From a virus: a stretch of DNA of 36,274 nt. Location of the stretch: IMG/VR virus record IMGVR_UViG_3300033153_007321, positions 1 to 36,274 of that record. One strand, given 5' to 3'. The notes beneath the pieces are model-generated. The model worked only from the letters and a program-made list of their open reading frames with translations. It was not told where the DNA came from and did no database searches. Both the position numbers and the translations under genes were made by a program. Numbering within the stretch: the stretch's first letter is position 1; every line of letters begins with the position of its first letter. Below are positions 3,233 to 36,274 of this stretch, piece by piece.

Positions 3233-3234
3233 TT

Positions 3235-17659: not shown

Positions 17660-17663
17660 TTGA

Positions 17664-18119: not shown

Positions 18120-18120
18120 G

Positions 18121-18411: not shown

Positions 18412-18432
18412 AACATTTTCCTTTCTTTTTTG

Positions 18433-18891
18433 TTAACTTCCTGCAAAAGCTTTAATTATATAAAAAGCTCCTATTGCAGAACCAATTAAAATTAAATCTC
18501 TAAGAACTCCCTTAAATCCCTTATAAACTTTTATTGAAGTTCCTTTCATTGTTTCATTTACAATCTTTATAATTTTTTGTCTTAACCCATTATCGGTCAT
18601 ATCAACTACTTTTGCCTCAATTAAAGCATCAATTCCTGATACATTTAGTGGACAAATTTCTTTATGTACTGATTGAGTGTCTTCAATCTTTTTTAAAATA
18701 GTTATCTCCATACTAAAAACTTGTTTTCTAAATTCTTTTGATTCCCTATGCAATAAAAAAGAATCCCAAGCATTTGAATTCTCTTCATTTAATTTCTTAA
18801 TATATTCTGGTTTTATTGCATTAAGTGGAGCATCATAACGAACAAGAACTCCATCATCCATTTCGTAACCATCGTCTAGAGGTTTACACAT
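18433..18891 (-). CDS. C-terminally anchored protein in lysis region
   Basis: 152-aa protein with a soluble, charged N-terminal part and one hydrophobic segment at the very end (residues about 128-150, VLRDLILIGSAIGAFYIIKAFAG). This topology leaves about 125 residues on one side of the membrane. I see no known domain; the middle (IEAKVVDMTDNGLRQKIIKIVNETMK) is helical. It lies between the peptidoglycan-active candidate and the holin candidate, so an accessory or antiholin-like role is conceivable but not shown. GGAG stands 9 nt before the start. Confidence 0.7.
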   Translation of the reverse strand: MCKPLDDGYEMDDGVLVRYDAPLNAIKPEYIKKLNEENSNAWDSFLLHRESKEFRKQVFSMEITILKKIEDTQSVHKEICPLNVSGIDALIEAKVVDMTDNGLRQKIIKIVNETMKGTSIKVYKGFKGVLRDLILIGSAIGAFYIIKAFAGS

Positions 18892-18894
18892 TAT

Positions 18895-19677: not shown

Positions 19678-20015
19678 TAGTTTATCAATTTTAGTTTTTT
19701 ATATCCATTAAAAAAGTTCTCATAAAAAGCTAAAAATCCTTTATGCTGTGGCAGATTCTGTTCTTTATCTGCTAAAGCAAGACTCATTCCAATTAAAGTG
19801 GCTTCATCTTCAGTCCATTGAATTTTAATACCTTTATCAAGTATTTTATTCCATTTAACATTACCATCTTCAATTCGGATATTACAAGTTTTTTTATCTT
19901 TTTCTGTAATCTTCATCTTTTGACGAATTGTCTCACAAGATTTTAAGATTATAAATGACCCTTTTTTTGGTAAAAGACCTGGAAAAAGAACTCTTTCATA
20001 CATAAATATTAACAT
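19677..20015 (-). CDS. Hypothetical protein in lysis region
   Basis: 112-aa basic protein of no recognised family. It has alternating strand-like segments (GSFIILKSCETIRQKMKI, CNIRIEDGNVKWNKILDKGIKIQW) and a helical acidic stretch (WTEDEATLIGMSLALADKEQ). There is no convincing membrane segment. Two close in-frame ATGs occur (residues 1 and 5); AAGGAAA lies about 7 nt before the first. It is translationally coupled to the next gene through TAATG, so it may work with it. Confidence 0.7.
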   Translation of the reverse strand: MLIFMYERVLFPGLLPKKGSFIILKSCETIRQKMKITEKDKKTCNIRIEDGNVKWNKILDKGIKIQWTEDEATLIGMSLALADKEQNLPQHKGFLAFYENFFNGYKKLKLIN

Positions 20016-20045
20016 GATTATTTCCTTTTTATTAAGGTGGATAAA

Positions 20046-20258
20046 TTAGCAGTTTTGAAACACTACTATGATTATTATTATTATAGCTATACCTATTGTA
20101 TATTGCCACAATTTCGGATTTTCGAACCAAGATTTTTCCTTCACAGGAATTTCTTTTTCTTTCTTTTTTTGTTTTTTCATTTCAGGTTCCTTTTTATTTT
20201 TTTCTCTTTCTTTATTAAGAATTGCCCTTCTCTGTTTAAAATTGTGTTTTGGATTCAT
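20046..20258 (-). CDS. Small tail-anchored basic membrane protein
   Basis: 70-aa protein with a very basic first 45 residues (mostly K, E and R) and a single hydrophobic segment near the C-terminus, rich in isoleucine (YTIGIAIIIIIIVVFQ). The C-terminus is a Cys two residues later. It starts the lysis-region block just after the large fibre gene, with AAGGAAAG before the ATG. A holin or membrane-tether role is possible, but the sequence is too simple to assign a family. Opposite-strand open frames here only mirror its lysine codons. Confidence 0.65.
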   Translation of the reverse strand: MNPKHNFKQRRAILNKEREKNKKEPEMKKQKKKEKEIPVKEKSWFENPKLWQYTIGIAIIIIIIVVFQNC

Positions 20259-20281
20259 GATTCTTTCCTTTCATTAGGTTA

Positions 20282-23125
20282 TTAATAATTTATCTCAAAC
20301 GAAACTGATTCTATAACAATAGCACCAGACTCACCTCCTGCAATAACTTGAATAGCTATTCTTTCACCAGAACTAATTGAAAATGAATTTGATGTATCAG
20401 ACTGAAGCCCAGTTACACCTGATCCGTAAGTAACGGTTACTGATTGATCAGCTCCATTTTTTCTTAATGTAACAACACAATTATCAGCTGTATTTTGAGT
20501 AGAGACATAAACTCTTAAATTCTTTACTATACCTGCAACAGGAATATAAAATTCTGCATAAGCTTCTGTAGTATTGACATCACCACCCCCATTGCCTAAA
20601 TAACGAGTTGTTGCAGCAGGAACATTTGAACCTGTACCACTAAATCCTAAAACATAACTATGAGAAATGGCTGCTATTAAACTATTTACTTTAGATGAAC
20701 TAAATAATTCAACAGCACTATCACCACTATCATTTATAATTCTATGCTCGCCAGCAGCAAAATCAGCTAAAGCATCATGGCTCAACATTTTTTCTAAATT
20801 AGCAATAGTTATTTTCTTTTTAACATTTATAGCTTCAGTATCTTCTATCAACAATACATCAGCACCAATAGGACTATTTTTAGCAGCTACATTTATTATT
20901 TCAGCAGCTGTATTATCATGGATAGCAGTGCCGTCAGTACCATCCCCACCAGGAGTATCACAAGTATTAGCGCTAGTCTGGTCAGCATTTGCATCTGTAC
21001 ATTTTGCATCTGTTTCAGTTACAGGTATAGGAGAAGATTGAACTGAGTAGTCTCCTGCACCATCAGTTTTGCAATACCCTGAACTACTAAAATCGCCATC
21101 TATAACTACATCAGAATGACTAGTTTCGAGAGTAGACACAACAGAACCTAAGGTAGCACTCTTTTTAATATAAACTGCATCACTATCTTCTATGATTATT
21201 TCATCAGCACTTTCAGGTGTTCCTTTCAAAGTGATGGCAGTAATTTCATTTTGTTGATTATCATGAATAGCAGTCGTGTCAGTACCTGGCCCACCTTCAA
21301 TATAGTTATCAATATGGATTGTTCCTACTGAGTTTTCCCAGTTATAATGTTCAGCAGCAGTAATGCCTGCTAATGAATCATGATCTAACATCTTTTCTAA
21401 ATTTTCAATAGTTAATTTCTTTTTAGCATTTGCTGCTTCAGTATCTTCTATCAACAATACATCAGCACTAAGTGGAACCCCTTTATCTGCTATAGCAAAT
21501 ATCTCACCTAAAACATTATCGTGAATGGCTGTAGTATCTGTTCCAGCACCTCCAGGGGTATCACAAGTATTATCTCCTGTAACATCAGCGCCATCAATAA
21601 CATTAATATCTCCACGGAGTTCGCTAAATGTCTTACTTTCTAATCCAAGAGTAGTGAATTTTGCATATTCTCCATTAGTAATAGATTCACTATCAATTGT
21701 GACTATATGATTATCTATAATACCATGAGAAATCTGATGACCATGATCACTTCTAGCTAATGAGTGGGCTGTACCAGTAGATTTAGCTACAACAATTGAT
21801 ATTTCTCCTGGAAGGGCTGTATCTAAAGCATCAGATCCGTCTTCAGGATCATGTTCGTCTTTATGTGCAGAAGGTGCTCCTGCAGGTAAATTAGTAATCT
21901 GAACCATCTTTTTAATATTAGAAGCTTCACTATCTTCAATCATTAGCATATCAGTTTGAATAACAGCTGTTTTTTCTGCTATAACACTAATTTCATCAGC
22001 AACATTATCGTGGATAGCAGTTGCATCAGCTCCATCTGGGACTCCAGAAGCAGGAATTGCTCCATCCTTAACCAAAAGACCATCAATTGTGACGCCTACA
22101 TCTGTAGTAAGTTCTTCAATCAAATCGATTAAAAGTTCACCATCACTTGTAAGAACCATTTTAACGTCGTTAATAGCATCAACATCTGCTGCATCATCAT
22201 TTGAATCTACAGCAAAATATAAATGACCTTTGCCATTTGTCATAGAATCTTCTCTCAAGTGCATTATTGCAGATTTGTAATAAATATTATCAACACCAAG
22301 TTTTATTAGTGCTCCATAACCATCAGCATTACTATTTCGTAACACATTTAATAATTCTCCACTTGTATCAAATATATTTATTTCGTTACTAAATGTAATA
22401 CCAACTCCTGTAGTACTTTCTTTTATTGAGTCGACAAAAAGATCACCTTCAATTTCACAATCATTTTGAACTCCCAAATCAGCACCATCAGAACTAGTAT
22501 CACAAGCAAGATTATCAAAAATATCTTCATTTGCTTGCCAATAACCAACAGTTACTATTTCATCATCCAGAATTGCAGGACCAGCAATTAACATCGATCT
22601 TGGGTTATAAGTAGCATTCCCTACCCCTGACTTTGGAATAGCAAATCTTATATTATTAGAGCTTTCTGCAAATAAAAATTCTATATTAGATGTTGATGGA
22701 GACCCAACATTTCGAATTATAATTGACCCATCTATATCTAAATCTCCAACATTATGAGAAGTTCGTCCAATAATACTATTCCCCATTCTTATGATTCCAT
22801 AATCAGGAGTTGTTACATCACCAACTGTAAGATCATAATCAGTTAATCCACCATCACCATCACCTATAAAATTCCAAAGACCTGTGATTTGTTCAGTACT
22901 AGTAATATCACCATAAAGAGCATGATCATCATCTTCTAATCCCGTTAAAGCACCATGATCACCAGCACTACTACCAATAGCCGCATACAAATCTTTTACA
23001 ACAGAATCTATAAGATGCTTTAGTTCAATATATTGTTCATGTGTTACTACTTGTTTATCAGTAGTAGCTTTATTACCACGAACTCCCTTTTTATTTCCTA
23101 AATCATGTTGATTCGTTTTTGCCAT
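20282..23125 (-). CDS. Modular tail fibre protein
   Basis: 947-aa virion-type fibre. Residues about 1-110 form a conserved-looking base (VTHEQYIELKHLIDSVVKDLY, then DHGALTGLEDDDHALYG) typical of phage fibre N-terminal regions. From about residue 360 to 790 there are four copies of a module beginning G(T/A)DxTAIHDN and continuing with EI..(I/V) and ADxLLIEDxEA..KK; two copies also share NLEKMLxHDxLA. These begin near residues 362, 527, 613 and 727. The last 120 residues, after a helix, form a beta-sandwich-like tip (YLGNGGGDVNTTEAYAEFYIPVAG to SVSFEINY) that could bind the receptor. Direct DNA repeats occur between modules 2 and 4. The function is inferred from family style and location. Confidence 0.8.
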   Translation of the reverse strand: MAKTNQHDLGNKKGVRGNKATTDKQVVTHEQYIELKHLIDSVVKDLYAAIGSSAGDHGALTGLEDDDHALYGDITSTEQITGLWNFIGDGDGGLTDYDLTVGDVTTPDYGIIRMGNSIIGRTSHNVGDLDIDGSIIIRNVGSPSTSNIEFLFAESSNNIRFAIPKSGVGNATYNPRSMLIAGPAILDDEIVTVGYWQANEDIFDNLACDTSSDGADLGVQNDCEIEGDLFVDSIKESTTGVGITFSNEINIFDTSGELLNVLRNSNADGYGALIKLGVDNIYYKSAIMHLREDSMTNGKGHLYFAVDSNDDAADVDAINDVKMVLTSDGELLIDLIEELTTDVGVTIDGLLVKDGAIPASGVPDGADATAIHDNVADEISVIAEKTAVIQTDMLMIEDSEASNIKKMVQITNLPAGAPSAHKDEHDPEDGSDALDTALPGEISIVVAKSTGTAHSLARSDHGHQISHGIIDNHIVTIDSESITNGEYAKFTTLGLESKTFSELRGDINVIDGADVTGDNTCDTPGGAGTDTTAIHDNVLGEIFAIADKGVPLSADVLLIEDTEAANAKKKLTIENLEKMLDHDSLAGITAAEHYNWENSVGTIHIDNYIEGGPGTDTTAIHDNQQNEITAITLKGTPESADEIIIEDSDAVYIKKSATLGSVVSTLETSHSDVVIDGDFSSSGYCKTDGAGDYSVQSSPIPVTETDAKCTDANADQTSANTCDTPGGDGTDGTAIHDNTAAEIINVAAKNSPIGADVLLIEDTEAINVKKKITIANLEKMLSHDALADFAAGEHRIINDSGDSAVELFSSSKVNSLIAAISHSYVLGFSGTGSNVPAATTRYLGNGGGDVNTTEAYAEFYIPVAGIVKNLRVYVSTQNTADNCVVTLRKNGADQSVTVTYGSGVTGLQSDTSNSFSISSGERIAIQVIAGGESGAIVIESVSFEINY
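20832..20865 (-). repeat. 34-bp direct repeat in fibre gene, copy 1
   Basis: Perfect 34-bp match to 21435-21468, encoding the VLLIEDTEA part of fibre modules 4 and 2. The copies are 603 bp (201 codons) apart, so recombination between them would keep the frame. Confidence 0.9.
21435..21468 (-). repeat. 34-bp direct repeat in fibre gene, copy 2
   Basis: Perfect match to 20832-20865 in the same frame; see that entry. Confidence 0.9.
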
Positions 23126-23364
23126 TAATCTTCTATTTCAATTTCTAATCTATGAGTAACTTCTATTTCTCTAGGATTTTGAACTACTATCCCAGTAAAT
23201 TTTAAAGCAATTGTACCATAATAATTTCCAGTATTATACTTATCCAAAACAAAAATTAAGGCTCTAGCCAAATCAATGCCGTTATCTACAGAAGCCTTTG
23301 AATTAGTCTTTAATCCCAATTGAATACTTTTTAAAAGTCTTTTCTGTAATTTTTCTGAATTCAT
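23125..23364 (-). CDS. Hypothetical protein
   Basis: 79-aa protein, family not recognised. A helical N-terminal half (LQKRLLKSIQLGLKTNSK, ARALIFVLDKY) is followed by a beta-prone end (TIALKFTGIVVQNPREIEVTHRLEIEIED). No signal or membrane segment. The stop overlaps the ATG of the large fibre gene (TAATG), so it is probably co-translated and could be a fibre-attachment or chaperone partner; that is inference. Confidence 0.7.
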   Translation of the reverse strand: MNSEKLQKRLLKSIQLGLKTNSKASVDNGIDLARALIFVLDKYNTGNYYGTIALKFTGIVVQNPREIEVTHRLEIEIED

Positions 23365-23387
23365 TTTTAACTTTCATTGAGTTTAAA

Positions 23388-23792
23388 TTATTCTCTCTTA
23401 TAAGCTAGTCCAGAACCACTTGTCAGTTCAATATAAATAATGTTCCAAGCATAAAAATTAGTTGATGCAGGTAAAGTTATTGCTTTATATTGAGTTGTAT
23501 CACCTACTACATCTACTGCTGCCATACTGTCAACAACTGTTGATTCCATTGTAAAAAATAAATAAAAATTTCCTGAATGTAAAGCTGCATCGGCAATCAA
23601 TTCTGCCCCGTATATTCCGTAAACTTCCATCGGATAATAGTAGTAATGAGTATCATCAATAGGATTATACACCATTGCCGGAAACATTTTAGTACCGCGA
23701 AAATTTAAATCACTACTTGGAACTTCAAGTGCTTGTCCAAATAAATTTAAACTAAATAAAATAAACGAAATTAGAACTAGTAACTTTTTCAT
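23388..23792 (-). CDS. Small secreted protein with Sec signal
   Basis: 134-aa protein beginning with a clear signal peptide, MKKLLVLISFILFSLNLFGQ, with cleavage likely near LFG/Q. The ending FGQ is common in secreted proteins of Bacteroidota-like bacteria. The mature part (about 115 aa) is beta-rich, with VPSSDLNFRGTKMFP, a tyrosine run and LPASTNFYAWNIIYIELTSGSGL. No family is recognised. It resembles small fibre-tip or decoration domains, and with two other signal-bearing proteins in the fibre region it raises the possibility that this phage exports part of its products. It is followed by a 79-aa gene. Confidence 0.75.
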   Translation of the reverse strand: MKKLLVLISFILFSLNLFGQALEVPSSDLNFRGTKMFPAMVYNPIDDTHYYYYPMEVYGIYGAELIADAALHSGNFYLFFTMESTVVDSMAAVDVVGDTTQYKAITLPASTNFYAWNIIYIELTSGSGLAYKRE

Positions 23793-23803
23793 TCTTACAC
23801 TCC

Positions 23804-24070
23804 TTATTTGTGAGACCCACCTTTTTCTGGGTGAGATTGATTATGTTTAGCTGCTGCCGTTGAGCCTTTACTAGGCTTTAAAACTTTTAAATTAGATTTA
23901 GCTGAATTACTTTTATTGTGGTCTTTATGGTGAACAATTTCCCCCCTCTTTGCACCTGCTTTCTTTCTATAATAGGATTTGGATCGTCCACTTTTCCAAC
24001 GTCCATTAGATTTTCCTGATCTCTTCATTCTAGGATTTTTTACTTTACTACTTGGATTTCGGTTGGACAT
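23804..24070 (-). CDS. Small HNH endonuclease
   Basis: 88-aa very basic protein with an HNH core: GEIVHHKDHNKSNSAKSNLKVL, with HHKDHN at residues 47-52, N/L at 60-61, and a later H..SH at 76-80. This order (HH-x-D-x-N...NL...H...H) is the betabetaalpha-metal HNH signature. The protein is near the minimal size for such nucleases and has no intron-homing DNA-binding module beyond the basic N-terminus (GRWKSGRSKSYYRKK, similar to a NUMOD-type leader). It could be a free-standing homing nuclease among virion genes, or a nuclease aiding packaging. Position away from a terminase makes the first somewhat more likely. Confidence 0.75.
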   Translation of the reverse strand: MSNRNPSSKVKNPRMKRSGKSNGRWKSGRSKSYYRKKAGAKRGEIVHHKDHNKSNSAKSNLKVLKPSKGSTAAAKHNQSHPEKGGSHK

Positions 24071-24335
24071 CTATTCTTCTCCTTGTATAATTATATTCAG
24101 AAGGATTTCTTTCTTTTACAACAATTCTTTGAACTGGAGTTCTATCTCCTAAAACTACTCCGTCCGGCACTGGTTGTGCTGTAGCATGTAAATCATGAGA
24201 ATCAAAAACCCTATCTACTACTTGATAACCTGTATAACAAATAATCATCAAAATCAAAACTATAAATGCTTGTATTGGAGTTACTTTCTTTGATAAAGTA
24301 ACAACTCCATCACCTATTTTGTCCCATATACTCAT
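24048..24335 (-). CDS. Single-pass membrane protein, unknown
   Basis: 95-aa protein with one hydrophobic segment (residues about 21-42, IQAFIVLILMIICYTGYQVV) and a roughly 50-residue polar, proline-containing tail (TAQPVPDGVVLGDRTPVQRIVV) rich in R and K at the end. The topology resembles small phage inner-membrane proteins such as Rz-like or infection-accessory proteins, but there is no coiled coil to support a spanin. Its ATG overlaps the upstream stop, and it overlaps the HNH gene by 23 nt. Confidence 0.7.
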   Translation of the reverse strand: MSIWDKIGDGVVTLSKKVTPIQAFIVLILMIICYTGYQVVDRVFDSHDLHATAQPVPDGVVLGDRTPVQRIVVKERNPSEYNYTRRRIDVQPKSK

Positions 24336-24706
24336 TATATAAATGGAAATCTAATCCATACAATATATGTTTTAGAACTTGCCGTAAATATTTTTAACCA
24401 ACCCCAATATGTATGTTCTCTTAATTTTTGAGTATCAGAAGGAGTAAAATATAACTTAAAAGTACTAGAATCAGTAATTTCAATTTGACTATTACTCCCA
24501 CCAGCAGCCGTATTTCTTTTCCTAAAAAGAGCCACTCCTTCTTTTACTTTTTTCAACTCGAATTCTATAGAAGCATCAGTCAAATCAGTAAAAAGAGTTG
24601 ATTGGTTAATTGATTCATAAGTCGTATAAATCAATTCTTTATCACTTCCTCTCTCAATGGGTTGCATAACGACAACAGAAGTTTCAATTACTTCCAAATT
24701 TTGCAT
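24335..24706 (-). CDS. Beta-rich virion-type protein, baseplate-like
   Basis: 123-aa protein whose pattern (ASIEFELKKVKEGVALFRKR, SQIEITDSSTFKLYFTPSDTQKLREHTYWGWLKI) matches the N-terminal domains of phage baseplate upper proteins and similar small strand-rich modules, where a 'lTPsDTxxLxxxxYxWxlki' stretch ends the fold. It is too short to be a full baseplate protein and may be an adaptor that seats the giant adhesin, whose gene lies just upstream. No signal peptide or membrane segment. AGGA precedes the ATG. The family match is by pattern only. Confidence 0.45.
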   Translation of the reverse strand: MQNLEVIETSVVVMQPIERGSDKELIYTTYESINQSTLFTDLTDASIEFELKKVKEGVALFRKRNTAAGGSNSQIEITDSSTFKLYFTPSDTQKLREHTYWGWLKIFTASSKTYIVWIRFPFI

Positions 24707-24707
24707 T

Positions 24708-27700
24708 TTATAATCCTATATTTTTACGTATAATTTTATTTACTGAGATACTTGCTTCAACTTCCATCAACGGTACTTTCATAGCCTTTCGTATTTTATT
24801 ATTGATATAGAGGTCTGTGAAGATTTCTTTACCGCCTGGTATAACTCCATAAATGTACTCGTTCGCAAGAATATTATCAAAAATTCCTAAATAAAGTTCA
24901 CTTCGAACTTCAACAATTTCAGTCGTATAAACATCATCATATACAAATATGAATTGAGGTTGCTCAATAAAGATAGATTCTGTTACAATACTATCATCAT
25001 AAAGATCTATATAACTAATAACTTCTAAAGCATAAGGGAGTTCTATAATATAAACATTAGTAATTTCTGCTGAGAAAGTTTCTGACGGAGTAGGTCGAAA
25101 ACTAAGAGCTTCCTCAGCTGGAGGTTCTCCAAAACAGGGGAAAGAATAAATAAAGTGATGATGGCCATTTGAAGTAACAGTATAGTCTTGAGCTAAAAAT
25201 GTTCCCCCTGTTAAGTTTGCAACATCAAATGAAATATCATAAAATGTATTGCAAAGTAATCCATTACTTATGTTATAAATTCTTGAATTACCCCCAATAT
25301 CTGTTGCAATTAGTTTCCCCCCGCCGACAGTCCAAGTTCCAAGATCTAAAAACTGCTCCCAATATATGTCAAGATTAAATGAGCCGTTTGCAATATGATT
25401 TGTATAGCTAATAGGACTCTCAAATACATTTATTTTAAAGCTAGTCCATTCAGTAAATAGTTCTTCTATTGAATAAGCTTCATCATAGATATCTAATGTA
25501 ATTCCTGTATAAAGAATTAAATTTTCATCAGTAAATACATCCTCGTAAAGATCAATTACAATTGCTCCAGGATCGACTCTTGTGAGGTTAATAGATTCTG
25601 TAGTAAATACATTTTGAAAAATGTCTATTACTAAAGCATCTGGTAAAACTATCGTTATATCTTCAGTGGTAAATATGTCATCAAAGAGTCCAGGATGCGA
25701 GACAACTTCAGTATAGTTAAAAACTTTCCTAACTGTAAAATTATCAAAACTTCCACTCATGATTCCCTGATTAGCTACTACATAAATAGTCTTAATAGAA
25801 GGATTGGAGACCGTTAATATTTCATTATAATGAGCACTTCCCGACATGACAATAACTGCTGGCCCTCCAAAAACAATACTTAACCCATTAGCAGTAACAT
25901 CATAAGCATCAAATGTTATCTCAAACTGATCTCCATTTACCATACTACAAGATAGAATTTGGCGAGTATTTCCAGAGATAGTAGCGTCTGTAGCTAATAA
26001 TCTTTTATTAACAGCGTCATAACTCCAAGGTATTCCAGTTAGTATCCAAGAGCTTGTACCAGTATCAAAAGTACCATTAATGACTAAATTATCTCCAACA
26101 TTGTAATCTCTTAAATACGATAAATCATTTACATTAATACTTATTTGTATTTCACTTAAAGTAACTTCTTCAGAAGTTTTAGCATCCTCATATATATCAA
26201 TAACTATTGCACCAGCATCGACTCTTGTCAGATTAAGCGATTCAGTTACAATTGCATCATCATAAACATCTACTAAATAGTTTTGATAGAATAAAGTAAC
26301 TAATTCTGTTGTATAAAGGTCATCAAAAATATCGATGTTTCGAGAAGGTAATGCTCCTATATTAATAGTTATATCTTCTGTTGTAAAAATATTATCAAAT
26401 GAGTCTATGAATGAAATAACTTCAACAAATGTGGTGACCCTTTGAAGAACTATATTATCTATAAAAGCTTCAAAGCAATCTCCAGAAGCTCTTATTATAA
26501 AGGGTTCCCCACCTGTCTCATTATAATCAAAATATTCAACAAAAGTCCCCCCATTGTCTCTTGGAATCCCCTCAGAAGTACCTATCATCCACCTTAGATC
26601 ACCATCATCTATATCATCAATATCAAAAGAAATTCTATATCTTCCAGGTACCATATTTATATCATCAGACTGTACAAGGTCATACCAATCATCAGGTATT
26701 ACTTGTTCAAAATGAGCCCACTTATCTACTAAGTCAATATCCCAGCCTGAGTCCCAATCCCAAAAATCGTCTATTGAAAACTCCCCATTCAAAATCATAT
26801 TATCAGTTAGATTTAAATCATCTCTTATGAAAAGAATATCATTAATATCAATATTAGCTTGTATCTCGCTTAAAACAATATCTTCAGTGGTAAAACCTTC
26901 ATCGTAAACTAGAATGTAATTCTCTTCACTTAATGAGATGTTTTCAGTAGTGAATGCTTCATCATATAATGATAATAAATAATTATCAAATAAGAAAGTT
27001 AAATCCTCAGAAGTTTTTGCATCTTCATAAAGATTAATTACTATTGCTCCCGCATCAACTCTTGTTAGATTAAGTGATTCAGTTGTATATCCAAGTTCTG
27101 AAAGGTCTATATTGTATTCTGGTATAAGAGTAATAATATCTTCAGTGGTAAAACCTTCATCGTATGTATTGAGGTTTACTGAGACTTCAAGGGTTATAGC
27201 AGAAACTTCTTTAATAGATATATCATCTATTGCTGCAGTAGTCGGATCATCAACAGCATTTAGATAAAAATCTTGATATTGAGCAAATATCTCTTCTGAA
27301 TACCAACCAGTAGAATCTATTAACTCACCTGAGTTATTTCCAAGCGCAGCTTTAAGTCTACCTTCTGAAAGGGAAGTAACATTAAAAGAAACTCTATAAG
27401 TTTTACCAGTTGTAACAAAACCATATCTAAGAAACCCACTCCAATCAGTATTATTAGTCCAAACCATTTCTCCGCCAGTTATAGCAGTATTCCCATTTAT
27501 TGTCCAAAACCCTGTGTCGCTTGAAAATTCTCTATCAGCCGCAACAGTAATTAGTTCTACTTCATTAACGTATGGATCAGTAACTATAGAATCATCGAAT
27601 GAATCGATGTTTAATTCTCCTATAACAGGGATTGAGGCTGTAATGTCTTCAGTGGTGAATGCCTCTGAATAAATATTAATATCTCCCAATTGAAGATTCT

Positions 27701-30700
27701 CAATTACTATATCCTCCACCGTCTTTGCATCCTCATAGACATTGATAACAATGGCTCCTGCATCGACTCTTGTCAGATTTAATGATTCTGTTGTATACCC
27801 GAATTCTGAAAGGTCAATATTATATATCTGGTAGAATAAAGTTATATCTTCTGTAGTAAACGCTTCATCGTATAAATCGATGTTAGCCTGAATTTCGCTT
27901 AAAGTAATATCTTCAGTGGTATACCCCTCATCAAATAAATCGATATAATATTCTGGAATAAGAGTAGTAATAAATTCAGTTGTATATCCTAAATCGAATA
28001 AATCGATATCAAGATTACCAACATCAAATTCGACTGTAACGTCTTCAGTGGTAAATATATCATCAAGAGGTCTGATATAAGAAATAACTTCCATTGTAAC
28101 ACGAGGATCACCATCAATTAGCATCCAAACAATTTCTCCATCTACATCATAGACAATATCTCCATTTACGTCTCTTAAAGGCTCATAAATAGTATACATT
28201 GAAGAATCCACATAAGCAATATTATATACATTAATATGATATTCTGGTATAAGAGCTGTTACTTCCTCTGTTGTAAAGCCTTCTGAAAAGACATTAACAT
28301 AATATTCTCCTATAAAAGAAGTTTCAGCTGTAACATCTTCTGTAGTATTAATATTATCAAGAATATCTATAAGAATATTTTTTTCAAGAGTTGATACTGT
28401 ATCTACATTCTCCCATCCAAAGATGTTTAAATCAATTCTTGTAATAATGTCTTCTGTTGTAAATCCTTCTGAATAGACATCAACATTTAAATCTCCTATA
28501 ACAGGGATTGAAGCTATTATATCTTCAGTGGTAAATCCCTCTGAATAGGCATTGACATTTAATTCTGAAACTGATACAATAATATCTTCTGTTGTAAATA
28601 CAAAATCATAGGACTCAATATATGACGCTTCGTGTTGTTGTATATATTCAATTGTATAAGCAAAATCCTGAAGATTTATATCTCCTAATTGTAGGTTTTC
28701 AGTAGTAATACCCTCCGAGGTCTTCGCATCATCATAAAGATTAATTACTATTGCACCTGCATCAACTCTTGTGAGGTTAAGTGACTCAGTTGTATATCCA
28801 AATTCTGAAAGATCAATATTATATTCTTGGTAAAATGAAGTTATATCTTCTGTTGTAAATATATCATCGTATGTATCAACTATTGGATCAGAAACTATAA
28901 CATTTGGTATCTGTTGAACTACAATATCATCTATTGTAAATTCTTTACCAATTGCCATGAAAGTGTCTCCGAATTTAATTAGTGGACTCCAATTTTGACA
29001 CTCTACAACAATAAATTCATAATTTTGATACTCTGTATTCAAAGATGGGTTCAAAATTTGAATTGGACTCTCTGCATCAGCAATACCCATCTTAGATGTT
29101 GAATTTGAAGATTTGGCTCGCCAAGTAAATCTATATGGTCTGCCAATAACCAACTGACCATATTTGTAAATAGAAGCTTCATAAGCTACATTATTAACCG
29201 TAAAAGTCATATCGAATGAGCCAGAGTTCCAAGCAACAGTACCGTTAGATAGCGACCACCAACCTGTCCCATCTGTTTCAAAAGTACTTGAAGCTGCTGG
29301 AATAGCATTAACATTTACTACATCACTAAAATTATTACTGGCTATAGAATCATCATAGACATCAACATTTAATTCTCCTATAACAGGGATTGAAACTGTA
29401 ACATCTTCTGTTGTAAATCCTTCTGAATAGGTATTAATATGATATTCTGGTATAAGAGCTGTAACATCTTCAGTTGTAAATATATCATCGTATGTATTGA
29501 GGTTTACTGAGACTTCAAGAGTTACTGCAGAAACTTCTTTTACTGAAACATCATCTATTTCTGCATTACATGGTGTTCCTGTATACTGTTTAATTATAAA
29601 CCACATAAAACCTGCTTCAAGTATGCCTGTGTGTACCCCAGGAGAGGATATATAGACCATCATATCAGCACCAAATTGAAGAGCAAATGTTCCAGTTATA
29701 GATTTAACATCTATCGAATAATAATAAGATTTACCGGCTGTTAAAATAGTTTGACTAACACTTGCAGATGTTCCATCCGTTATTAAATTCAACTGTCCAG
29801 GTGTAGTCTGGGTAATATTACTTGTAGCATCACCGACCTCAGTTACATCCCAACCATCTGGGTCATCACTTGTCCAGTTTGCGAAATCACCATTTATTAC
29901 TAATTCTATTGGACTAAGATATGGATCTGAAACAATAGAATCATCGAATAAATCAATACCAGCTTGTATTCCACTTAAAGTTATATCTTCAGTTGTAAAT
30001 GAATCATCATATGTATCAACTATAGGATCAGAAACTATGACATTTGATATTTGTTGAAATATAATATCATCTATTGTAAATTCTCTACCGATTGGGACAC
30101 TAGATGCATCAAATACAATCAGCGGATTGATATTTGGAGCAACTTGTATAAATTCATAATTTTGATATTCTGTAGTTAAGTTCGGATTTAATATTGTTGT
30201 ATAACTACCTTCAGCACTTGGACGCATTTTCTCTGTAGAGTTAGAAGATTTTGCTCTCCACTTAAATCTATATTTAATTCCCTGAACAGTTCCAGTCCAT
30301 CTGTGAATTCCAGCTTGATAACCAACCTCTGTTACAGTACAAGTGGCATCCTTCGTACCAGAATTCCAAACAAAAGAAGAACGTGCCTCCTCCCACCACC
30401 CAGTACCATCAGTATCAAAATAGGCTGAAGCATCAGGAACAAGATTAACATTTACTACATCACTAAAATTATTACTGGCTATAGAATCATCATAGACATC
30501 AACATTTAATTCTCCTATAACAGGGATTGAAGCTGTAACATCCTCTGTTGTAAATCCTAAATCGAATGAATCGATATGGTATTCTGGTATAAGAGCTGTA
30601 ATGTCTTCAGTGGTAAAACCTTCTGAAAAGACATTAATATTTCCTAATTGAGAATTCTCAATCGTTACCTCTTCAGTTGTAAATCCTAAATCGTATGTAT

Positions 30701-32543
30701 CTACATGGTATTCAGGTATAAGAGTGATAACGGATTCTGTTGTAAATGCTTCATCAAATAAATTAACATGGTATTCTGGTATAAGAGTGGTAACGGATTC
30801 TGTTGTAAATGCTTCATCGAATGAATCGATGTTTAATTCTCCTATAACAGGGATTGAGGCTGTAATGTCTTCAGTAGTATAAATATTATCATAAACATCT
30901 ACTTCTAAACCCCCTCCCTCAGCATCGGCCTTAATTGCAAAAACGACAGCTGCCTGGTAACTTACGGCACCTACTTCATACGAGAAAGTATCTTCTCCGA
31001 GTTCATAGGCAAGGTCGTGGCTAACAACACCACTAATTCCTGACTCAAAACTTGTTTGCCCATTCAATGCACAATTTACTGTATTATCATATACTGACCC
31101 AAATATGAAGCCTAAGTCATTCGCACCAACATCTCCTATATCCTCACTCGTCCAAGTGGTGTCGTCATCACCACTGTCTGTTGCATCAGACCCAATTACA
31201 AATGTTTCATCTACAACCGTTCCTGATAGAAAAAACAATATAACAGTCCCATCAAATTGAAAATCATCTGTGAAAGACCCTGTGAAAGTTAGTCCAGTTG
31301 CTCCTCGGGTTGGAAAACCTGTTTCGCCATATTTTAAATAATAAGCACCTGCTGCTTGCTCATTATTACTTGTATCACCCCCACCTGCAAGAAGTGTAAA
31401 ATGGTCATCAGTATCAGCATCAAAATTACTAATGTCTAATATATCATTTCCAGCCGTGCCCATATAGCCACCAACCAAACAAAAGATTGCGGCTGTTGCG
31501 TTTGCCGGAACGTCTATACCTGTAATTGTCCAAGTTTGACTTGATGTTGGAAGTGGACTTACAAGCCACTTATATACTGTTCCAATGGTGATTCCACTAA
31601 TAGCTTCAGCAAAAATAGATACGTCAACAACAACAGCTTGTTCAAATAAATCAATGTTTAGATCAACAATGCCTAATCCAGAAAGAGTAATATCCTCCAC
31701 TGTATATGCTTCTGAAAAGACATCAATGTAAGAAGTTAAATCAGATGAGATTGATTCTGTGGTAAAACCTTCTGAGAAAACATTAACATTATTATCGGCA
31801 ACGTCAATAAATGAAGTAATGATATCTTCTGTGGTAAAACCTTCTGAGAAAACATTAACATCTAAAATTGCTTGAAAAACTAAAGCTGTAACATCTTCTG
31901 TTGTAAATCCTTCTGAATAGGTATTAATATGATATTCTGGTATAAGAGTTATAATGTCTTCTGTTGTGAATCCTTCTGAATAAGCGTCTATCTCAACAAA
32001 ACTAACAACTCCAGTTTCAATAGTTACATCTTCAGTTGTATAACCCAGTTCATAATCAATATTAATATCTCTATCTGGAAGAGATTCAGTATATACCCCA
32101 TCAGTCCATATATCCCAAATATATTGATATTCCTTATCTCCACCCCCTACTCTGTCATAAACAATTCTTACTTCTATATCTGATAAAATTTGATCATTTG
32201 CTAAAATAGCACTCTCTGTTTGAATAGCAGCATTACCGTTTGGCCCCATAGCTAATAACCAATTTCCCCAAGAACCGCCTCCGTTTAATGAGTATTCAAT
32301 TCCCCAAATATCATTATCATAAGCTGTAGTTCCAGACCATTTAACATATAAGGTTAATGCAGTATAAACTTCAATTGGAGTTTGCCAAGTGTGGTATCTA
32401 TATGTTGAATCGGCTACATTATACCAATCAGCATTTGTGGTTTCATCTCCTCCAGTAGCAGTATCATATGCCTGCCCAGGATTAGACATTATTATACCGG
32501 AATCACCAGTACTAGCGGTAGGTTTCCTTATCTCATTAGCCAT
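24708..32543 (-). CDS. Giant repeat/lectin-domain adhesin (2,611 aa)
   Basis: The largest gene. After a beta-sandwich-like head (residues about 1-155), nearly 60 tandem copies of a 20-24-residue unit follow; the core is xIDxFxEGFTTEDITxxIPEY with variants such as DSIVTE and EDAKTSE. The array is broken by one domain similar to the 253-aa neighbour (about 328-545, ending in a GGG linker) and seven lectin-like domains. These start near residues 698, 880, 1078, 1662, 1915, 2152 and 2385, many opening with INGxF or NGSF and ending IDDIxxxxV, as in galactose-binding/CBM_4_9-type folds. The last 60 residues are basic and form a distinct end. It is probably a long fibre displaying many sugar-binding domains, or a baseplate-attached adhesin. 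There is no signal peptide. GGGGGA lies upstream of the ATG. Confidence 0.8.
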   Translation of the reverse strand: MANEIRKPTASTGDSGIIMSNPGQAYDTATGGDETTNADWYNVADSTYRYHTWQTPIEVYTALTLYVKWSGTTAYDNDIWGIEYSLNGGGSWGNWLLAMGPNGNAAIQTESAILANDQILSDIEVRIVYDRVGGGDKEYQYIWDIWTDGVYTESLPDRDINIDYELGYTTEDVTIETGVVSFVEIDAYSEGFTTEDIITLIPEYHINTYSEGFTTEDVTALVFQAILDVNVFSEGFTTEDIITSFIDVADNNVNVFSEGFTTESISSDLTSYIDVFSEAYTVEDITLSGLGIVDLNIDLFEQAVVVDVSIFAEAISGITIGTVYKWLVSPLPTSSQTWTITGIDVPANATAAIFCLVGGYMGTAGNDILDISNFDADTDDHFTLLAGGGDTSNNEQAAGAYYLKYGETGFPTRGATGLTFTGSFTDDFQFDGTVILFFLSGTVVDETFVIGSDATDSGDDDTTWTSEDIGDVGANDLGFIFGSVYDNTVNCALNGQTSFESGISGVVSHDLAYELGEDTFSYEVGAVSYQAAVVFAIKADAEGGGLEVDVYDNIYTTEDITASIPVIGELNIDSFDEAFTTESVTTLIPEYHVNLFDEAFTTESVITLIPEYHVDTYDLGFTTEEVTIENSQLGNINVFSEGFTTEDITALIPEYHIDSFDLGFTTEDVTASIPVIGELNVDVYDDSIASNNFSDVVNVNLVPDASAYFDTDGTGWWEEARSSFVWNSGTKDATCTVTEVGYQAGIHRWTGTVQGIKYRFKWRAKSSNSTEKMRPSAEGSYTTILNPNLTTEYQNYEFIQVAPNINPLIVFDASSVPIGREFTIDDIIFQQISNVIVSDPIVDTYDDSFTTEDITLSGIQAGIDLFDDSIVSDPYLSPIELVINGDFANWTSDDPDGWDVTEVGDATSNITQTTPGQLNLITDGTSASVSQTILTAGKSYYYSIDVKSITGTFALQFGADMMVYISSPGVHTGILEAGFMWFIIKQYTGTPCNAEIDDVSVKEVSAVTLEVSVNLNTYDDIFTTEDVTALIPEYHINTYSEGFTTEDVTVSIPVIGELNVDVYDDSIASNNFSDVVNVNAIPAASSTFETDGTGWWSLSNGTVAWNSGSFDMTFTVNNVAYEASIYKYGQLVIGRPYRFTWRAKSSNSTSKMGIADAESPIQILNPSLNTEYQNYEFIVVECQNWSPLIKFGDTFMAIGKEFTIDDIVVQQIPNVIVSDPIVDTYDDIFTTEDITSFYQEYNIDLSEFGYTTESLNLTRVDAGAIVINLYDDAKTSEGITTENLQLGDINLQDFAYTIEYIQQHEASYIESYDFVFTTEDIIVSVSELNVNAYSEGFTTEDIIASIPVIGDLNVDVYSEGFTTEDIITRIDLNIFGWENVDTVSTLEKNILIDILDNINTTEDVTAETSFIGEYYVNVFSEGFTTEEVTALIPEYHINVYNIAYVDSSMYTIYEPLRDVNGDIVYDVDGEIVWMLIDGDPRVTMEVISYIRPLDDIFTTEDVTVEFDVGNLDIDLFDLGYTTEFITTLIPEYYIDLFDEGYTTEDITLSEIQANIDLYDEAFTTEDITLFYQIYNIDLSEFGYTTESLNLTRVDAGAIVINVYEDAKTVEDIVIENLQLGDINIYSEAFTTEDITASIPVIGELNIDSFDDSIVTDPYVNEVELITVAADREFSSDTGFWTINGNTAITGGEMVWTNNTDWSGFLRYGFVTTGKTYRVSFNVTSLSEGRLKAALGNNSGELIDSTGWYSEEIFAQYQDFYLNAVDDPTTAAIDDISIKEVSAITLEVSVNLNTYDEGFTTEDIITLIPEYNIDLSELGYTTESLNLTRVDAGAIVINLYEDAKTSEDLTFLFDNYLLSLYDEAFTTENISLSEENYILVYDEGFTTEDIVLSEIQANIDINDILFIRDDLNLTDNMILNGEFSIDDFWDWDSGWDIDLVDKWAHFEQVIPDDWYDLVQSDDINMVPGRYRISFDIDDIDDGDLRWMIGTSEGIPRDNGGTFVEYFDYNETGGEPFIIRASGDCFEAFIDNIVLQRVTTFVEVISFIDSFDNIFTTEDITINIGALPSRNIDIFDDLYTTELVTLFYQNYLVDVYDDAIVTESLNLTRVDAGAIVIDIYEDAKTSEEVTLSEIQISINVNDLSYLRDYNVGDNLVINGTFDTGTSSWILTGIPWSYDAVNKRLLATDATISGNTRQILSCSMVNGDQFEITFDAYDVTANGLSIVFGGPAVIVMSGSAHYNEILTVSNPSIKTIYVVANQGIMSGSFDNFTVRKVFNYTEVVSHPGLFDDIFTTEDITIVLPDALVIDIFQNVFTTESINLTRVDPGAIVIDLYEDVFTDENLILYTGITLDIYDEAYSIEELFTEWTSFKINVFESPISYTNHIANGSFNLDIYWEQFLDLGTWTVGGGKLIATDIGGNSRIYNISNGLLCNTFYDISFDVANLTGGTFLAQDYTVTSNGHHHFIYSFPCFGEPPAEEALSFRPTPSETFSAEITNVYIIELPYALEVISYIDLYDDSIVTESIFIEQPQFIFVYDDVYTTEIVEVRSELYLGIFDNILANEYIYGVIPGGKEIFTDLYINNKIRKAMKVPLMEVEASISVNKIIRKNIGL
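29307..29394 (-). repeat. 88-bp perfect direct repeat, copy 1
   Basis: Identical to 30444-30531, found just before two paralogous lectin domains of the giant adhesin. The offset is 1,137 bp, exactly 379 codons. Confidence 0.92.
30444..30531 (-). repeat. 88-bp perfect direct repeat, copy 2
   Basis: Identical to 29307-29394. It covers the linker SIPVIGELN, the unit VDVYDDSIASNNFSD, and the entry into the lectin domain. Confidence 0.92.
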
Positions 32544-32604
32544 TAAAATCCCCCAAAGTATTAGTTACAGTATAAATAGAAAGATGTCTTGTTATATCAG
32601 CCAT
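32536..32604 (-). CDS. Possible 22-aa ORF between the two adhesin-type genes
   Basis: An ATG one nucleotide after the stop of the 253-aa gene opens a frame MADITRHLSIYTVTNTLGDF... of 22 residues that ends 8 nt inside the giant adhesin gene. The ribosome site is poor (GAAGAT). It fills the only gap here, but it may be a non-coding remnant of a lost adhesin repeat rather than a gene. Confidence 0.25.
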   Translation of the reverse strand: MADITRHLSIYTVTNTLGDFNG

Positions 32605-32605
32605 A

Positions 32606-33367
32606 TTAATCTTCAACTGTTATTCCCAAAGAATCTGTTTGAATAGTTAACTCCTCTATTGAATGTCCCTCAGAAAAAGTATCAATCTCATCACCACCAC
32701 CAGCAGCTGCTCCCTTAAATGCAAATTGAACTCCTGTCCTTCCATCGACTACATCTGTTGTTATAGTAGCAACCCCAGTATTATCAGCACTTGCCATTAC
32801 TTTTGTTCCCCAAGACATACTTGGAGAGAAAGCATTTCCCGGCCTTTGAGCAGACTCGCCTCCATAAAACCAACCGGTTCCAGAATAAACAAAAGTCCCA
32901 AAATCTGCACCATCAAGAGAAGAATGGACAATAACTAAACAATCATCTTCATCAGTAATTATCTCATCAACATCAAAAACATCCGTATCGGCAGTGTTAG
33001 GTGTTCCCAGGGCATTGAAAGGGTCAGCGGTATCTACCCCCCTCAACACAATATAAGATCCACAATACTCCGTAGCAGAAACGGAAGTTACGGTAAAATC
33101 TCCCGACTCGCTTCCCGAAGCAACTTTATAAAAAGCACCAATAGTATCTGACCCGTTAGTGCCATCAGAATACATAAAGGTGTAGCCCGCTTCACTTACG
33201 TTTCCCGAACCTGTCCATTGAACTGGATCACCATCTTCATTACTCACCAATAGAATGATTAAATCATCCGCCTGTATGCTCCCCCAATGGGAAAAGGTTA
33301 GTGTATCGCCAGTATCAGCAGATGGTAAAGAAACAGCGTCACTATAAACTACTGTTGGTACAGCCAT
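32606..33367 (-). CDS. Beta-sandwich fibre protein, paralogue of giant adhesin domain
   Basis: 253-aa protein with a phage fibre-type beta-sandwich. It opens AVPTVVYSDAVSLPSADTG, with GSIQADDLIILLVSNEDG and later FYKVASGSESGDFTVT and YCGSYIVLRGV, a pattern common in virion fibre domains. It ends with TGVQFAFKGAAAGGGDEI followed by DTFSEGHSIEELTI. This reproduces the arrangement inside the giant adhesin, where AAVVFAIKADAEGGGLEV leads into VDVYDNIYTTEDIT. The protein is therefore the same domain plus linker plus a single FTTEDIT-type unit. It is most likely a short fibre or an attachment partner of the adhesin. Confidence 0.75.
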   Translation of the reverse strand: MAVPTVVYSDAVSLPSADTGDTLTFSHWGSIQADDLIILLVSNEDGDPVQWTGSGNVSEAGYTFMYSDGTNGSDTIGAFYKVASGSESGDFTVTSVSATEYCGSYIVLRGVDTADPFNALGTPNTADTDVFDVDEIITDEDDCLVIVHSSLDGADFGTFVYSGTGWFYGGESAQRPGNAFSPSMSWGTKVMASADNTGVATITTDVVDGRTGVQFAFKGAAAGGGDEIDTFSEGHSIEELTIQTDSLGITVED

Positions 33368-33486
33368 TAGATTCTCCCTAACTTTATTAGAGGATCATTT
33401 GCTTGTAATCCAGATGGATATGGTAAAGAAATTATACCATTTGAGTAAGTTACTCCCCCGTTTTCTATGTAAGTTGGAGCTGCCAC
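33367..33486 (-). CDS. 39-aa GTG-started ORF, N-terminal fragment of the same fibre family
   Basis: A GTG at 33486 with AAAGG about 9 nt before it opens a 39-residue frame, VAAPTYIENG to LIKLGRI. Its TAA overlaps the ATG of the 253-aa gene (TAATG). The sequence APTYIENGG...LPYPSGLQANDPLIKL matches the first 40 residues of this fibre-domain family, including the APT start and the GLQANDxLI strand also seen in the 253-aa protein (GSIQADDLIIL). It therefore looks like the opening of a paralogue whose remainder was lost. It may still be translated as a coupler for the next gene. Confidence 0.55.
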   Translation of the reverse strand: MAAPTYIENGGVTYSNGIISLPYPSGLQANDPLIKLGRI

Positions 33487-33488
33487 TA

Positions 33489-33671
33489 TTAATTACCTTT
33501 CAATGGTGGATCATTAATATTAGTTTTATGTCCCGCTTCTTTAAAAATAATCATATCATCTAAAATACACATAAAATAAGGTATTCCCCTAATTGGCTTA
33601 ATTTCTTTAGGTATTATATCAATAACAATTACTTCTTCTATAATAGAAATATGATTAACTACTTCGATCAT
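33489..33671 (-). CDS. Hypothetical small protein
   Basis: 60-aa protein with no recognised domain. It is rich in isoleucine with a likely strand-rich first half (EVVNHISIIEEVIVIDIIP) and then GIPYFMCILDDMIIFKEAG. The start overlaps the stop of the beta-helix gene by 4 nt (ATGA), and a GTG-started ORF begins 2 nt after its stop, so it is tied into the same translational chain. Function unknown. Confidence 0.55.
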   Translation of the reverse strand: MIEVVNHISIIEEVIVIDIIPKEIKPIRGIPYFMCILDDMIIFKEAGHKTNINDPPLKGN

Positions 33672-35242
33672 TGTTCAACACCCCAAATTTTAATTGAATC
33701 ATTACCCCAGAATTTTCCATCGGTACCCCAAAGAGGTTTTCCCCCTTCTCCTGAGTCTTTTACATCATAAGCCCCGATTGTTGGCGTTGACGAAGTTGGT
33801 CTAGCTGCACCATTCGGAACACCAAGCGTTCCTACAATTCTTGTCCCACAATACACCCAAGGTAATCCCATTGAAGTTATCTTCGTTTGTAAATCTTCTC
33901 CCGCACTTATACAAGGCGAAACACCTGTTAATTCACCATCCATATTTGCTTGGTCTGATATTCTCCCACTAAAATCAAGATCAAAATCAGGGTCTTCATT
34001 TTTGCCCGTACCACCAAGCGTATTTATAAAAGTTGACCATCCGAAATCAGTTGCTGAAGTTTCATTTCCATAGATAGTCCCTCTAAATAAATTATAACCA
34101 GTTGCTCCTTCATACTCTCGCCATACTAAATTTTCTCTTATACTATCTGCATAATTACTGTTTGAAAGTTTAATAAATGACATCCATTTTCCACCACCAG
34201 TACCATCTCCAAATTGTGCAAATACATTATTTACAAATGTAGCAGGAACTTCGTGTACAACTGCATCTGCATAAGGTCCCCAGGAGACAACAGTATTATG
34301 AGCAACAAAAGTAGGAGGCTTTACTTGCCCACCAGCATCTTGCCACCTTAAATTCAATACTGAGGTTTCATTAAAATCACTTGAGTTCCATGTACCACCT
34401 TGATACATAAAATTATTATAAACTATAACTGAATCTTCATTAGCACCATCAGCCCAAGCACGAACAATATATGATTGTCCTTGTGCATTTGAATCAACAA
34501 TTATTATATTATTATATATTCTAAACCCTTCAGATAATATAGCCAAAATACCATCTGCATGTATATTCTGATACTGAGAGTTTCTCATATGCAAGAAATT
34601 ATTTCTGATTATATGGTTACTACTACCATTAAAGGTGATACAGTCGCCACCACCAAGAGGCGGGCTAATCCAATTACTATTTTGTATGAGTATATTGCTC
34701 ATATTATCGGGATCATCCGATGCTGTATGGAATCCTTGATTAGTCCAGCCGTATGATGACAAAGAATCTAAAATTATTGAGTGCGCCTTATACTGTATAA
34801 AGAAATTATAACGTCCACCTCTCAATTCTAATCCATAAATAGTTATATAATCAGTCGAATAAGAATTATTCCCCCCCATATATATACAATCTCTTGTTGG
34901 TATTGTACCGGTAGCTTCTAATATTGCCCTACCATTATGCCCTGCATCCCAGCTATTTCTTATAGTAATTCGATTTTCAGCAGTACCTTGAATATTAAGG
35001 ACAGATAATATAGCATTACCACCACCACCACCATCCGTATCATAAACAGTTGAATCAGTACCGCCCGATACGTATATAATATCTCCAGGGTTAACTGAAC
35101 CCCAATTTATATCTGAAAAAGATTCCCAAGCATTAGTCCAACTTGTGCCACCATTAGTGCCATTAGCATTTTTATCTACATAATGATCAGTAGCAAATAA
35201 ACTATAAGTCATAAACAATACTAGTAAAAATAATTTTTTCAT
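33668..35242 (-). CDS. Secreted parallel beta-helix protein (pectin-lyase-like)
   Basis: 524-aa protein with a strong Sec signal (MKKLFLLVLFMTYSLFA, cut before TDHYVDKN). The start of the mature part, DHYVDKNANGTNGGTSWTNAW, then WGSVNPGDIIYVSGG, matches the opening of DUF1565/right-handed beta-helix proteins. The middle contains typical coils: ITIYGLELRGG, NILIQNSNW, HIIRNNFLHMRNS, FRIYNNIIIVDS, VIVYNNFMYQG. The conserved ending SSTPTIGAYDVKDSG is followed by a short W-rich tail. Phage beta-helices often bind or cleave polysaccharide, but a signal peptide is unusual for a virion tailspike. It may be a periplasmic or secreted depolymerase, or a surface protein of infected cells. Catalytic residues were not identified. 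Confidence 0.8.
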   Translation of the reverse strand: MKKLFLLVLFMTYSLFATDHYVDKNANGTNGGTSWTNAWESFSDINWGSVNPGDIIYVSGGTDSTVYDTDGGGGGNAILSVLNIQGTAENRITIRNSWDAGHNGRAILEATGTIPTRDCIYMGGNNSYSTDYITIYGLELRGGRYNFFIQYKAHSIILDSLSSYGWTNQGFHTASDDPDNMSNILIQNSNWISPPLGGGDCITFNGSSNHIIRNNFLHMRNSQYQNIHADGILAILSEGFRIYNNIIIVDSNAQGQSYIVRAWADGANEDSVIVYNNFMYQGGTWNSSDFNETSVLNLRWQDAGGQVKPPTFVAHNTVVSWGPYADAVVHEVPATFVNNVFAQFGDGTGGGKWMSFIKLSNSNYADSIRENLVWREYEGATGYNLFRGTIYGNETSATDFGWSTFINTLGGTGKNEDPDFDLDFSGRISDQANMDGELTGVSPCISAGEDLQTKITSMGLPWVYCGTRIVGTLGVPNGAARPTSSTPTIGAYDVKDSGEGGKPLWGTDGKFWGNDSIKIWGVEQ

Positions 35243-35695
35243 TTAATTCTCAGCCCAAATATTAGGAGAAACAAGAAGTTGAGTAGTAGAGAGAGCCTGA
35301 CCAACAGCTTTTAATATTGTCCCACCAGTTGTTGGTTTAGTTGAAGTCCATTGACCCTCCGTTTCTGAAAGCCAATAGATTGTTCCAGCAGTTAAACCTG
35401 TTGTAGTATAAACACCGTTTATTAGAATAACATTAGAACCTAAATAAATACCCAAAATCCCATCTGCAGTAGCTTCAGCTGAAGCATCAGCTTCATCCCA
35501 CCCAGAAGAAGTAAATTCACAAACTTCTCCTACTGTAACAGAACCATCTATTGTTTGAGTGCTAAGTCTTGAAATTCCTAATGAATCTGTATCTTCAACA
35601 ACGTGGATATAGTAGTTTAACTCACTAGTTGTATAATCTAACTGAGCCCAAAGAGGGATTGAAATTATTATAAAGAGGAACAAAAATTTTTTCAT
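35243..35695 (-). CDS. Secreted fibre-tip-type domain protein
   Basis: 150-aa protein with a signal peptide (MKKFLFLFIIISIPLWAQ). The mature part ends in a module often found in phage tail-fibre and decoration proteins: ADGILGIYLGSNVILINGVYTTTGLTAGTIYWLSETEGQWT, then ILKAVGQALSTTQLLVSPN. It has the LTAGxxYWLS...VGxALSxTxLLV pattern. A Sec signal on this fold is unexpected. The gene lies 9 nt after the glycosyltransferase-like gene and just before the beta-helix gene, so the two secreted products are probably made together. Confidence 0.7.
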   Translation of the reverse strand: MKKFLFLFIIISIPLWAQLDYTTSELNYYIHVVEDTDSLGISRLSTQTIDGSVTVGEVCEFTSSGWDEADASAEATADGILGIYLGSNVILINGVYTTTGLTAGTIYWLSETEGQWTSTKPTTGGTILKAVGQALSTTQLLVSPNIWAEN

Positions 35696-35704
35696 TTTTT
35701 CACC

Positions 35705-36274
35705 TTATGTCATTGAATCCTTTGAATCATTTTTAACTATTGGCATATTACTTTCAAGTCTTTCTGGTTCATATTTAGCATCTTCCATCATTGCGGGGAA
35801 TTGCTTCCCATCAAAATCTATATGTTTACAATAAATCCTAGTATCACATAAGAATGGATAAGGTTCTACTTGGAATTCTGGCCAACCAGCCTTATCAAAG
35901 AATCTGCCTGTTACAACTCGATCACTCCACCATATATCTTCAGTTCCAGATTTGTTATGGAATTGACCTTGTTCTTTATCATACCAAGCTATTTCTGGAG
36001 TTTCAAATATTCTTCTTACTTTCATTCCAGCAAGCATATATTCTTCTGATTCCTCATACATTGCTTTAAGTATCGAAACATGTATTAGAGTACATCCCAT
36101 ATGCGTATACCCAAGCCAAACCTTATCACCAAATTTCCACTTATCATAATAACCTGAACCCTTTTGTCTATACATTAAAGGCTCTGATGGTATAGATTTA
36201 GTAAAGTATATTCCTGAAATCACTGGGTACTTTCTTTCAATCATTGACTCGTTAAGCCATAATAGCGTACCCTG
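35705..36274 (-). CDS. Glycosyltransferase-like protein, 5' end beyond window
   Basis: The frame is open to the edge: ten codons (QGTLLWLNES) precede the first visible ATG at 36244 with no stop, so the real start is outside. The 189 visible residues resemble the C-terminal half of small phage and bacterial GT-A glycosyltransferases. ERKYPVISGIYFTKS is followed by WLGYTHMGCTLIHVSILKAM (family GxGCxLIxRxxxxxL), TEDIWWSDRVV, then FQVEPYPFLCDTRIYCKHID, the last matching the acidic E-D and C-x-H-ID end of the family. The sugar and acceptor are unknown. A capsular or virion glycan target is possible, given another sugar cassette later in the operon. Confidence 0.7.
   Translation of the reverse strand, partial: QGTLLWLNESMIERKYPVISGIYFTKSIPSEPLMYRQKGSGYYDKWKFGDKVWLGYTHMGCTLIHVSILKAMYEESEEYMLAGMKVRRIFETPEIAWYDKEQGQFHNKSGTEDIWWSDRVVTGRFFDKAGWPEFQVEPYPFLCDTRIYCKHIDFDGKQFPAMMEDAKYEPERLESNMPIVKNDSKDSMT

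Follow-up and report, generated by a model that had tools for sequence, protein, structure and literature searches.

A giant adhesin-like phage protein that interleaves an FTTEDIT repeat with seven CBM-type domains

In siphophages, sugar-binding modules on virion proteins have been tied to host contact: modules of the neck and tail that bear a CBM bound to host cells, and two such virion proteins have been demonstrated to do so (PMC6669499). In the 936 lactococcal siphophages these modules sit on structural proteins, namely the evolved Dit, the major tail protein and the neck passage structure, and aid contact with the host (PMC6669499). CBM_4_9 is named among the domains of phage receptor-binding proteins (PMC9230537). 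Tandem putative carbohydrate-binding domains are also found beside the tail genes of crAss-like phages, where BACON arrays expand by duplication and transfer of single domains (PMC6949934).

The window, that is, the whole stretch of 36,274 bases analysed here, is an IMG/VR virus record for which no end repeats are reported, and it is therefore probably a fragment. It comes from an uncultured tailed phage, probably a siphovirus. Its giant gene is a single open reading frame of 2,611 amino acids at 24708-32543, exactly where an earlier note on this DNA had placed it, and lies on the minus strand. We consider it probable that the product is a fibre-like adhesion protein of the virion, in which a backbone of short repeats carries seven CBM-type glycan-binding heads.

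The repeat follows the consensus [IV][DN]x[YF][DS][ED][GA][FY]TTE[DS][IV]T. Aligned on the invariant TTE, 47 units with this core were found in the giant protein, mostly spaced 20-24 aa apart inside uninterrupted arrays. Some ten further units are halved or degenerate, eight of them directly preceding an inserted domain, so that full, shortened and degenerate units together number about 56-57. The figure of about 58 repeats given in the earlier note was close when degenerate units are included, but only 47 carry the TTE core. A repeat HMM marked 52 places in the protein; in 200 shuffled copies, scores above 3 arose 0.03 times per protein.

The repeats are distributed over the protein as follows, all on the minus strand. 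Two arrays of six units plus a half-unit, placed by both the repeat HMM and the TTE alignment, occupy aa 159-301 (31641-32069) and aa 548-688 (30480-30902). The HMM places one unit and a half-unit at aa 842-872 (29928-30020) and further repeats at aa 1016-1067 (29343-29498), aa 1792-1899 (26847-27170), aa 2044-2140 (26124-26414), aa 2286-2375 (25419-25688) and, as the last of the series, aa 2510-2545 (24909-25016). The longest array, aa 1222-1655 (27579-28880), is broken by a 46-aa non-repeat stretch at aa 1442-1487. Ahead of the first array lies an N-terminal domain without known relative (aa 1-158, 32070-32543), whose position makes it a candidate attachment domain, and the protein ends in a basic tail that lacks the repeat core (aa 2546-2611, 24708-24908).

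Eight insertions, lettered A to H from the N-terminus, interrupt the repeats. Domain A (aa 302-547, 30903-31640, minus strand) is not CBM-like and shows weak similarity to the 253-aa protein encoded upstream, and the other seven, B to H, form one family. The seven larger domains proposed in the earlier note are thus present and homologous to one another; that layout had missed insertion A, the N-terminal domain and the non-repeat stretch at aa 1442-1487. Each of the eight insertions (8/8) is preceded by a half-unit in which the first half of the repeat is kept (for example NIDSFDDSI) and the TTEDIT half is missing, and each is then followed by a full unit. This fixed phase suggests, from the sequence, that the heads would be held at equivalent positions along a regular backbone.

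We found no relative of the FTTEDIT repeat in any database searched. The whole giant protein had none in viral_contigs, phages or genome_contigs, and a repeat profile matched nothing in PDB or Pfam, nor in the records behind the fetched loci, the last in a scan run without a positive control. Among degenerate DNA patterns searched in viral_contigs, where near copies of this record may be lacking, GFTTEDIT gave two unrelated single matches only, and D[DE]x[FY]TTED[IV]T and V[FY]DxITV.ExVTV gave zero. A match to phrog_13093 (1.9e-6) was rejected: its best stretch covers 14 residues, none passes alone, and the score is summed over repeats.

The inserted domains are more readily placed. Neither Pfam nor PHROG gave a significant match to the whole protein, and none of the single domains B-H reached a Pfam cut-off, the best values being 0.016 for CBM_6 and 0.085 for CBM_4_9 (PF02018); since the curated cut-off of CBM_4_9 is not reached by the seven domains, we do not file them under that Pfam family. 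Several of the inserted domains carry a motif akin to GKTYxVSFD, and a DNA pattern for the latter pulled 29 stretches from viral_contigs, most of which encode a phage-fibre domain of the form 'NGDF...W...GKTYKVSFD...IDNVSVKEV'; this pattern was picked with the record's own motif in mind and favours motif-bearing domains. A profile was built from 21 domains taken solely from other phage contigs. One member of this foreign set (L034) passes the curated CBM_4_9 cut-off (29.5 against 25.9 bits) and a second matches CBM_4_9 at 7e-5.

The phage-domain profile matches five of the inserted domains with E-values from 2e-13 to 2e-8, covering most of the domain length. These CBM-like domains, again on the minus strand, are C (aa 873-1015, 29499-29927; 9e-12), E (aa 1656-1791, 27171-27578, where a predicted jelly roll adds to the profile), F (aa 1900-2043, 26415-26846; 5e-10), G (aa 2141-2285, 25689-26123; 4e-13) and H (aa 2376-2509, 25017-25418; 2e-8). 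Domain D (aa 1068-1221, 28881-29342) follows at 2e-5 and domain B (aa 689-841, 30021-30479) at 8e-4. Domains E and G score 39.8 and 39.2 bits, compared with at most 10.4 for shuffled domains. Taken alone B is weak, barely above its shuffles (8.9 against 7.7 bits), and it is 61% identical to D. The profile did not match the N-terminal domain, domain A, the repeats or the tail, and no other protein in the window reached E <0.05. By these comparisons, B to H belong to a single family within the group of phage CBM_4_9-like fibre domains, and the giant protein can be classed as a multi-CBM phage adhesion protein, since one product of the appendage region holds several CBM-like domains homologous to each other. 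The earlier assignment to CBM or galactose-binding modules therefore stands by way of the intermediate phage profile and the predicted fold of domain E, but not directly at the Pfam cut-off.

AlphaFold2 predicts domain E as a beta-sandwich jelly roll with pLDDT of about 86-96 over most of its length. Its matches by Foldseek and VIA-align are CBM22, CBM29, CBM16, CBM4 and a porphyran-binding CBM; examples are CBM22 4xup (Foldseek E 2.6e-5) and 8xmz (VIA Z 11.1, rmsd 2.7 A, 116 of 137 residues). Among viral models, domain E lies near proteins annotated as CenC-like, tip attachment protein J and tail fibre. For this one domain, the model thus gives a CBM/galactose-binding-like jelly-roll fold. 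Jelly-roll matches to insecticidal and binary-toxin proteins reflect a common fold, and we do not propose a toxin reading.

Eph-receptor ligand domains, which do not bind sugar, score nearly as high against domain E, so the jelly roll alone is no proof of sugar binding. It is conceivable that the jelly rolls serve as spacers in the structure of a large fibre, or as modules for docking between proteins, and that the host is recognised elsewhere, for example by the 947-aa fibre-like protein encoded close to the giant gene or by the 123-aa protein just downstream. The presence of this other fibre-like gene would suit such an arrangement, as would the low mutual identity of B-H (13-36% except for the B/D pair), which is expected where no ligand is conserved. 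This divergence equally fits the binding of several different sugars, however; phage members of this family carry carbohydrate-binding annotations, and the siphophage CBMs that were tested bind host cells (PMC6669499). We regard the spacer or docking role as doubtful, and glycan-binding heads as the better account of the seven domains.

The repeats were modelled as short regular beta strands, at pLDDT of about 30-48 in both AlphaFold2 models. The first run, on seven internal rows, had a mean pLDDT of 41, and the second used an alignment of 25 rows; alignments containing P0004 were misaligned and were therefore excluded from folding. Where the first model matched tail fibres, tailspikes and NLRs over its whole length, we set the matches aside for their low confidence. 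A triple beta-spiral of the adenovirus type was also entertained as a possible fold of the repeat. More tentatively, the FTTEDIT repeat might be a new fibrous beta fold that serves as a plug-in rail, with jelly-roll heads at a fixed phase, where various glycan-binding domains could be gained or exchanged while the rod stays intact.

The gene order around the giant gene was compared with that of G001, a 77-kb viral contig. The two are collinear between the scaffold-like gene (15666-16832) and the partial tail gene at the low end of the window (2-325), and the major capsid protein of G001 is 55% identical to its counterpart here. Across 16883-36274 there is almost no likeness, the exceptions being a small HNH-like gene and the C-terminal segment of gene 35243-35695. 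The giant gene adjoins fibre-type genes in this region, upstream of the conserved head-tail block, and the gene order supports an appendage region where the earlier note had spoken of nearby fibre genes. The next gene upstream (32606-33367, minus strand) encodes the 253-aa protein, which has one domain, distantly akin to a protein from the tail region of a Ruegeria phage (E 5e-6), and ends at its C-terminus in a single unit resembling the repeat of the giant protein (EIDTFSEGHSIEELTI). Directly downstream, the 123-aa protein (24335-24706, minus strand) matches phrog_1084 (8e-5), a family without assigned function; a connector in the baseplate or fibre would be in keeping with its size and position.

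In the matching place G001 carries collagen-like proteins (a 1,267-aa ORF and a truncated ORF at the contig start), one of which shares its C-terminal tip segment with gene 35243-35695. In this variable region, then, the giant gene is one among several rod-like occupants that are unrelated to each other. Several proteins of 311-324 aa with repeated 'TRGIFAGG'-like segments are also encoded in the appendage region of G001. In L013, a locus of the relative phage, three related proteins of this size (2518-3492, 3497-4435 and 5093-6028), with 'YVTIATTGNAxDFGDL...GTRGIFAGG' repeats, lie beside collagen-like genes and are possibly propeller-like heads. A decorator-like protein ahead of the relative's capsid gene (L010, 9377-9928) ends in a short collagen-like tail (GLCGPAGLCGPIGLCGPEG) that is absent from its counterpart at 15199-15627.

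That the giant gene lies among appendage genes, on the upstream side of the head genes, would also suit a capsid or neck decoration directed at glycans of the environment, for instance those of mucus, algal polysaccharide or biofilm matrix, in place of a tail fibre that chooses the receptor. CBMs on the neck and the major tail protein are known in 936 phages (PMC6669499), and the structure closest to domain E by VIA is the porphyran-binding CBM, level with others. We recognised no capsid- or neck-binding domain in the protein, however, and its N-terminal domain has no known relative; we consider such a decoration unlikely.

Three minus-strand genes of the appendage region, at 33668-35242, 35243-35695 and 23388-23792, have starts like those of secreted proteins (MKKLFLLVLFMTYSLFA, MKKFLFLFIIISIPLWAQ and MKKLLVLISFILFSLNLFGQ), which is unusual for virion proteins; L008 has a start of this kind at 3353-3790. 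With such neighbours, the giant protein might be imagined as a phage product that acts on the surface of the infected cell, for example by blocking further adsorption, and forms no part of the virion. Its own start, MANEIRKPTAS, has no signal-peptide-like segment, and we consider this role very improbable.

Elsewhere in the window, five small minus-strand genes (328-3232) separate the tape-measure gene from the tail gene that comes next: a family-2 glycosyltransferase, a polysaccharide deacetylase, a weak methyltransferase match, a DUF5672 protein and a 236-aa protein without match. In G001 the tape measure is directly followed by the homologous tail gene, and the five genes therefore look like a sugar-modifying cassette inserted in the tail operon.

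Traces of how the giant gene grew are seen in its DNA. Self-comparison aligns aa 642-855 with aa 1021-1235 at 75% identity over 655 bases, a segment that takes in B, D and their flanking units, and many shorter repeat matches have 70-92% DNA identity. Domains C, F, G and H are 18-36% identical to E. These five are far more diverged than the B/D pair and are therefore either old duplicates or separate acquisitions. The gene may thus have grown by duplicating units and repeat-plus-domain segments, and its diverged domains may have been acquired from a common phage pool.

We propose that the short repeats of this adhesion protein form an extended, beta-structured backbone from which seven CBM-type jelly-roll domains, each in place of the second half of a repeat unit, would hang as heads. 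The heads would bind glycans at the surface of the host cell or in its surroundings, be it capsule, exopolysaccharide or cell-wall sugar, with low affinity at a single site and high avidity across the heads. If true, the protein would be a natural modular scaffold in which seven diverged heads of sugar-binding type are held in register by a short repeat. Phage adsorption would then offer a clear instance of multivalency, and the protein a possible template for the display of binding domains.

The earlier note had treated the layout as isolated. This does not hold for the domains: multi-copy ORFs of the same domain exist in phages, with up to five copies per ORF, and siphophage sugar-binding modules are well documented (PMC6669499). 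The tandem CBM_4_9/CenC-like phage proteins (L025, L026, L039 and L041; BFVD A0A6J5QSY4, 'Carbohydrate-binding, CenC-like') share with the giant protein the domain family, the several copies per ORF and the phage origin. Phages commonly carry this domain family in multiple copies, and in this respect the protein is of a kind already known. The L025, L026, L039 and L041 proteins have no FTTEDIT repeat between their domains, and their ORFs are shorter, several of the contigs being fragments. In the 936 phages, likened here by the role of the modules, CBMs are spread over several virion proteins, whereas here seven share one repeat backbone. BACON is a different domain, and the abstract of PMC6949934 mentions no short repeat interleaved with it. 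What appears new is the scaffold repeat interleaved with the domains, found nowhere else among the sequences searched. The collagen-like fibre proteins of G001 are likewise long and repetitive and lie in the corresponding appendage region, but they are built of GXY collagen repeats in place of FTTEDIT beta repeats, and no CBM-like domains were seen by eye in G001. One appendage region can host unrelated types of rod, collagen-like or built of the FTTEDIT repeat, in related phages.
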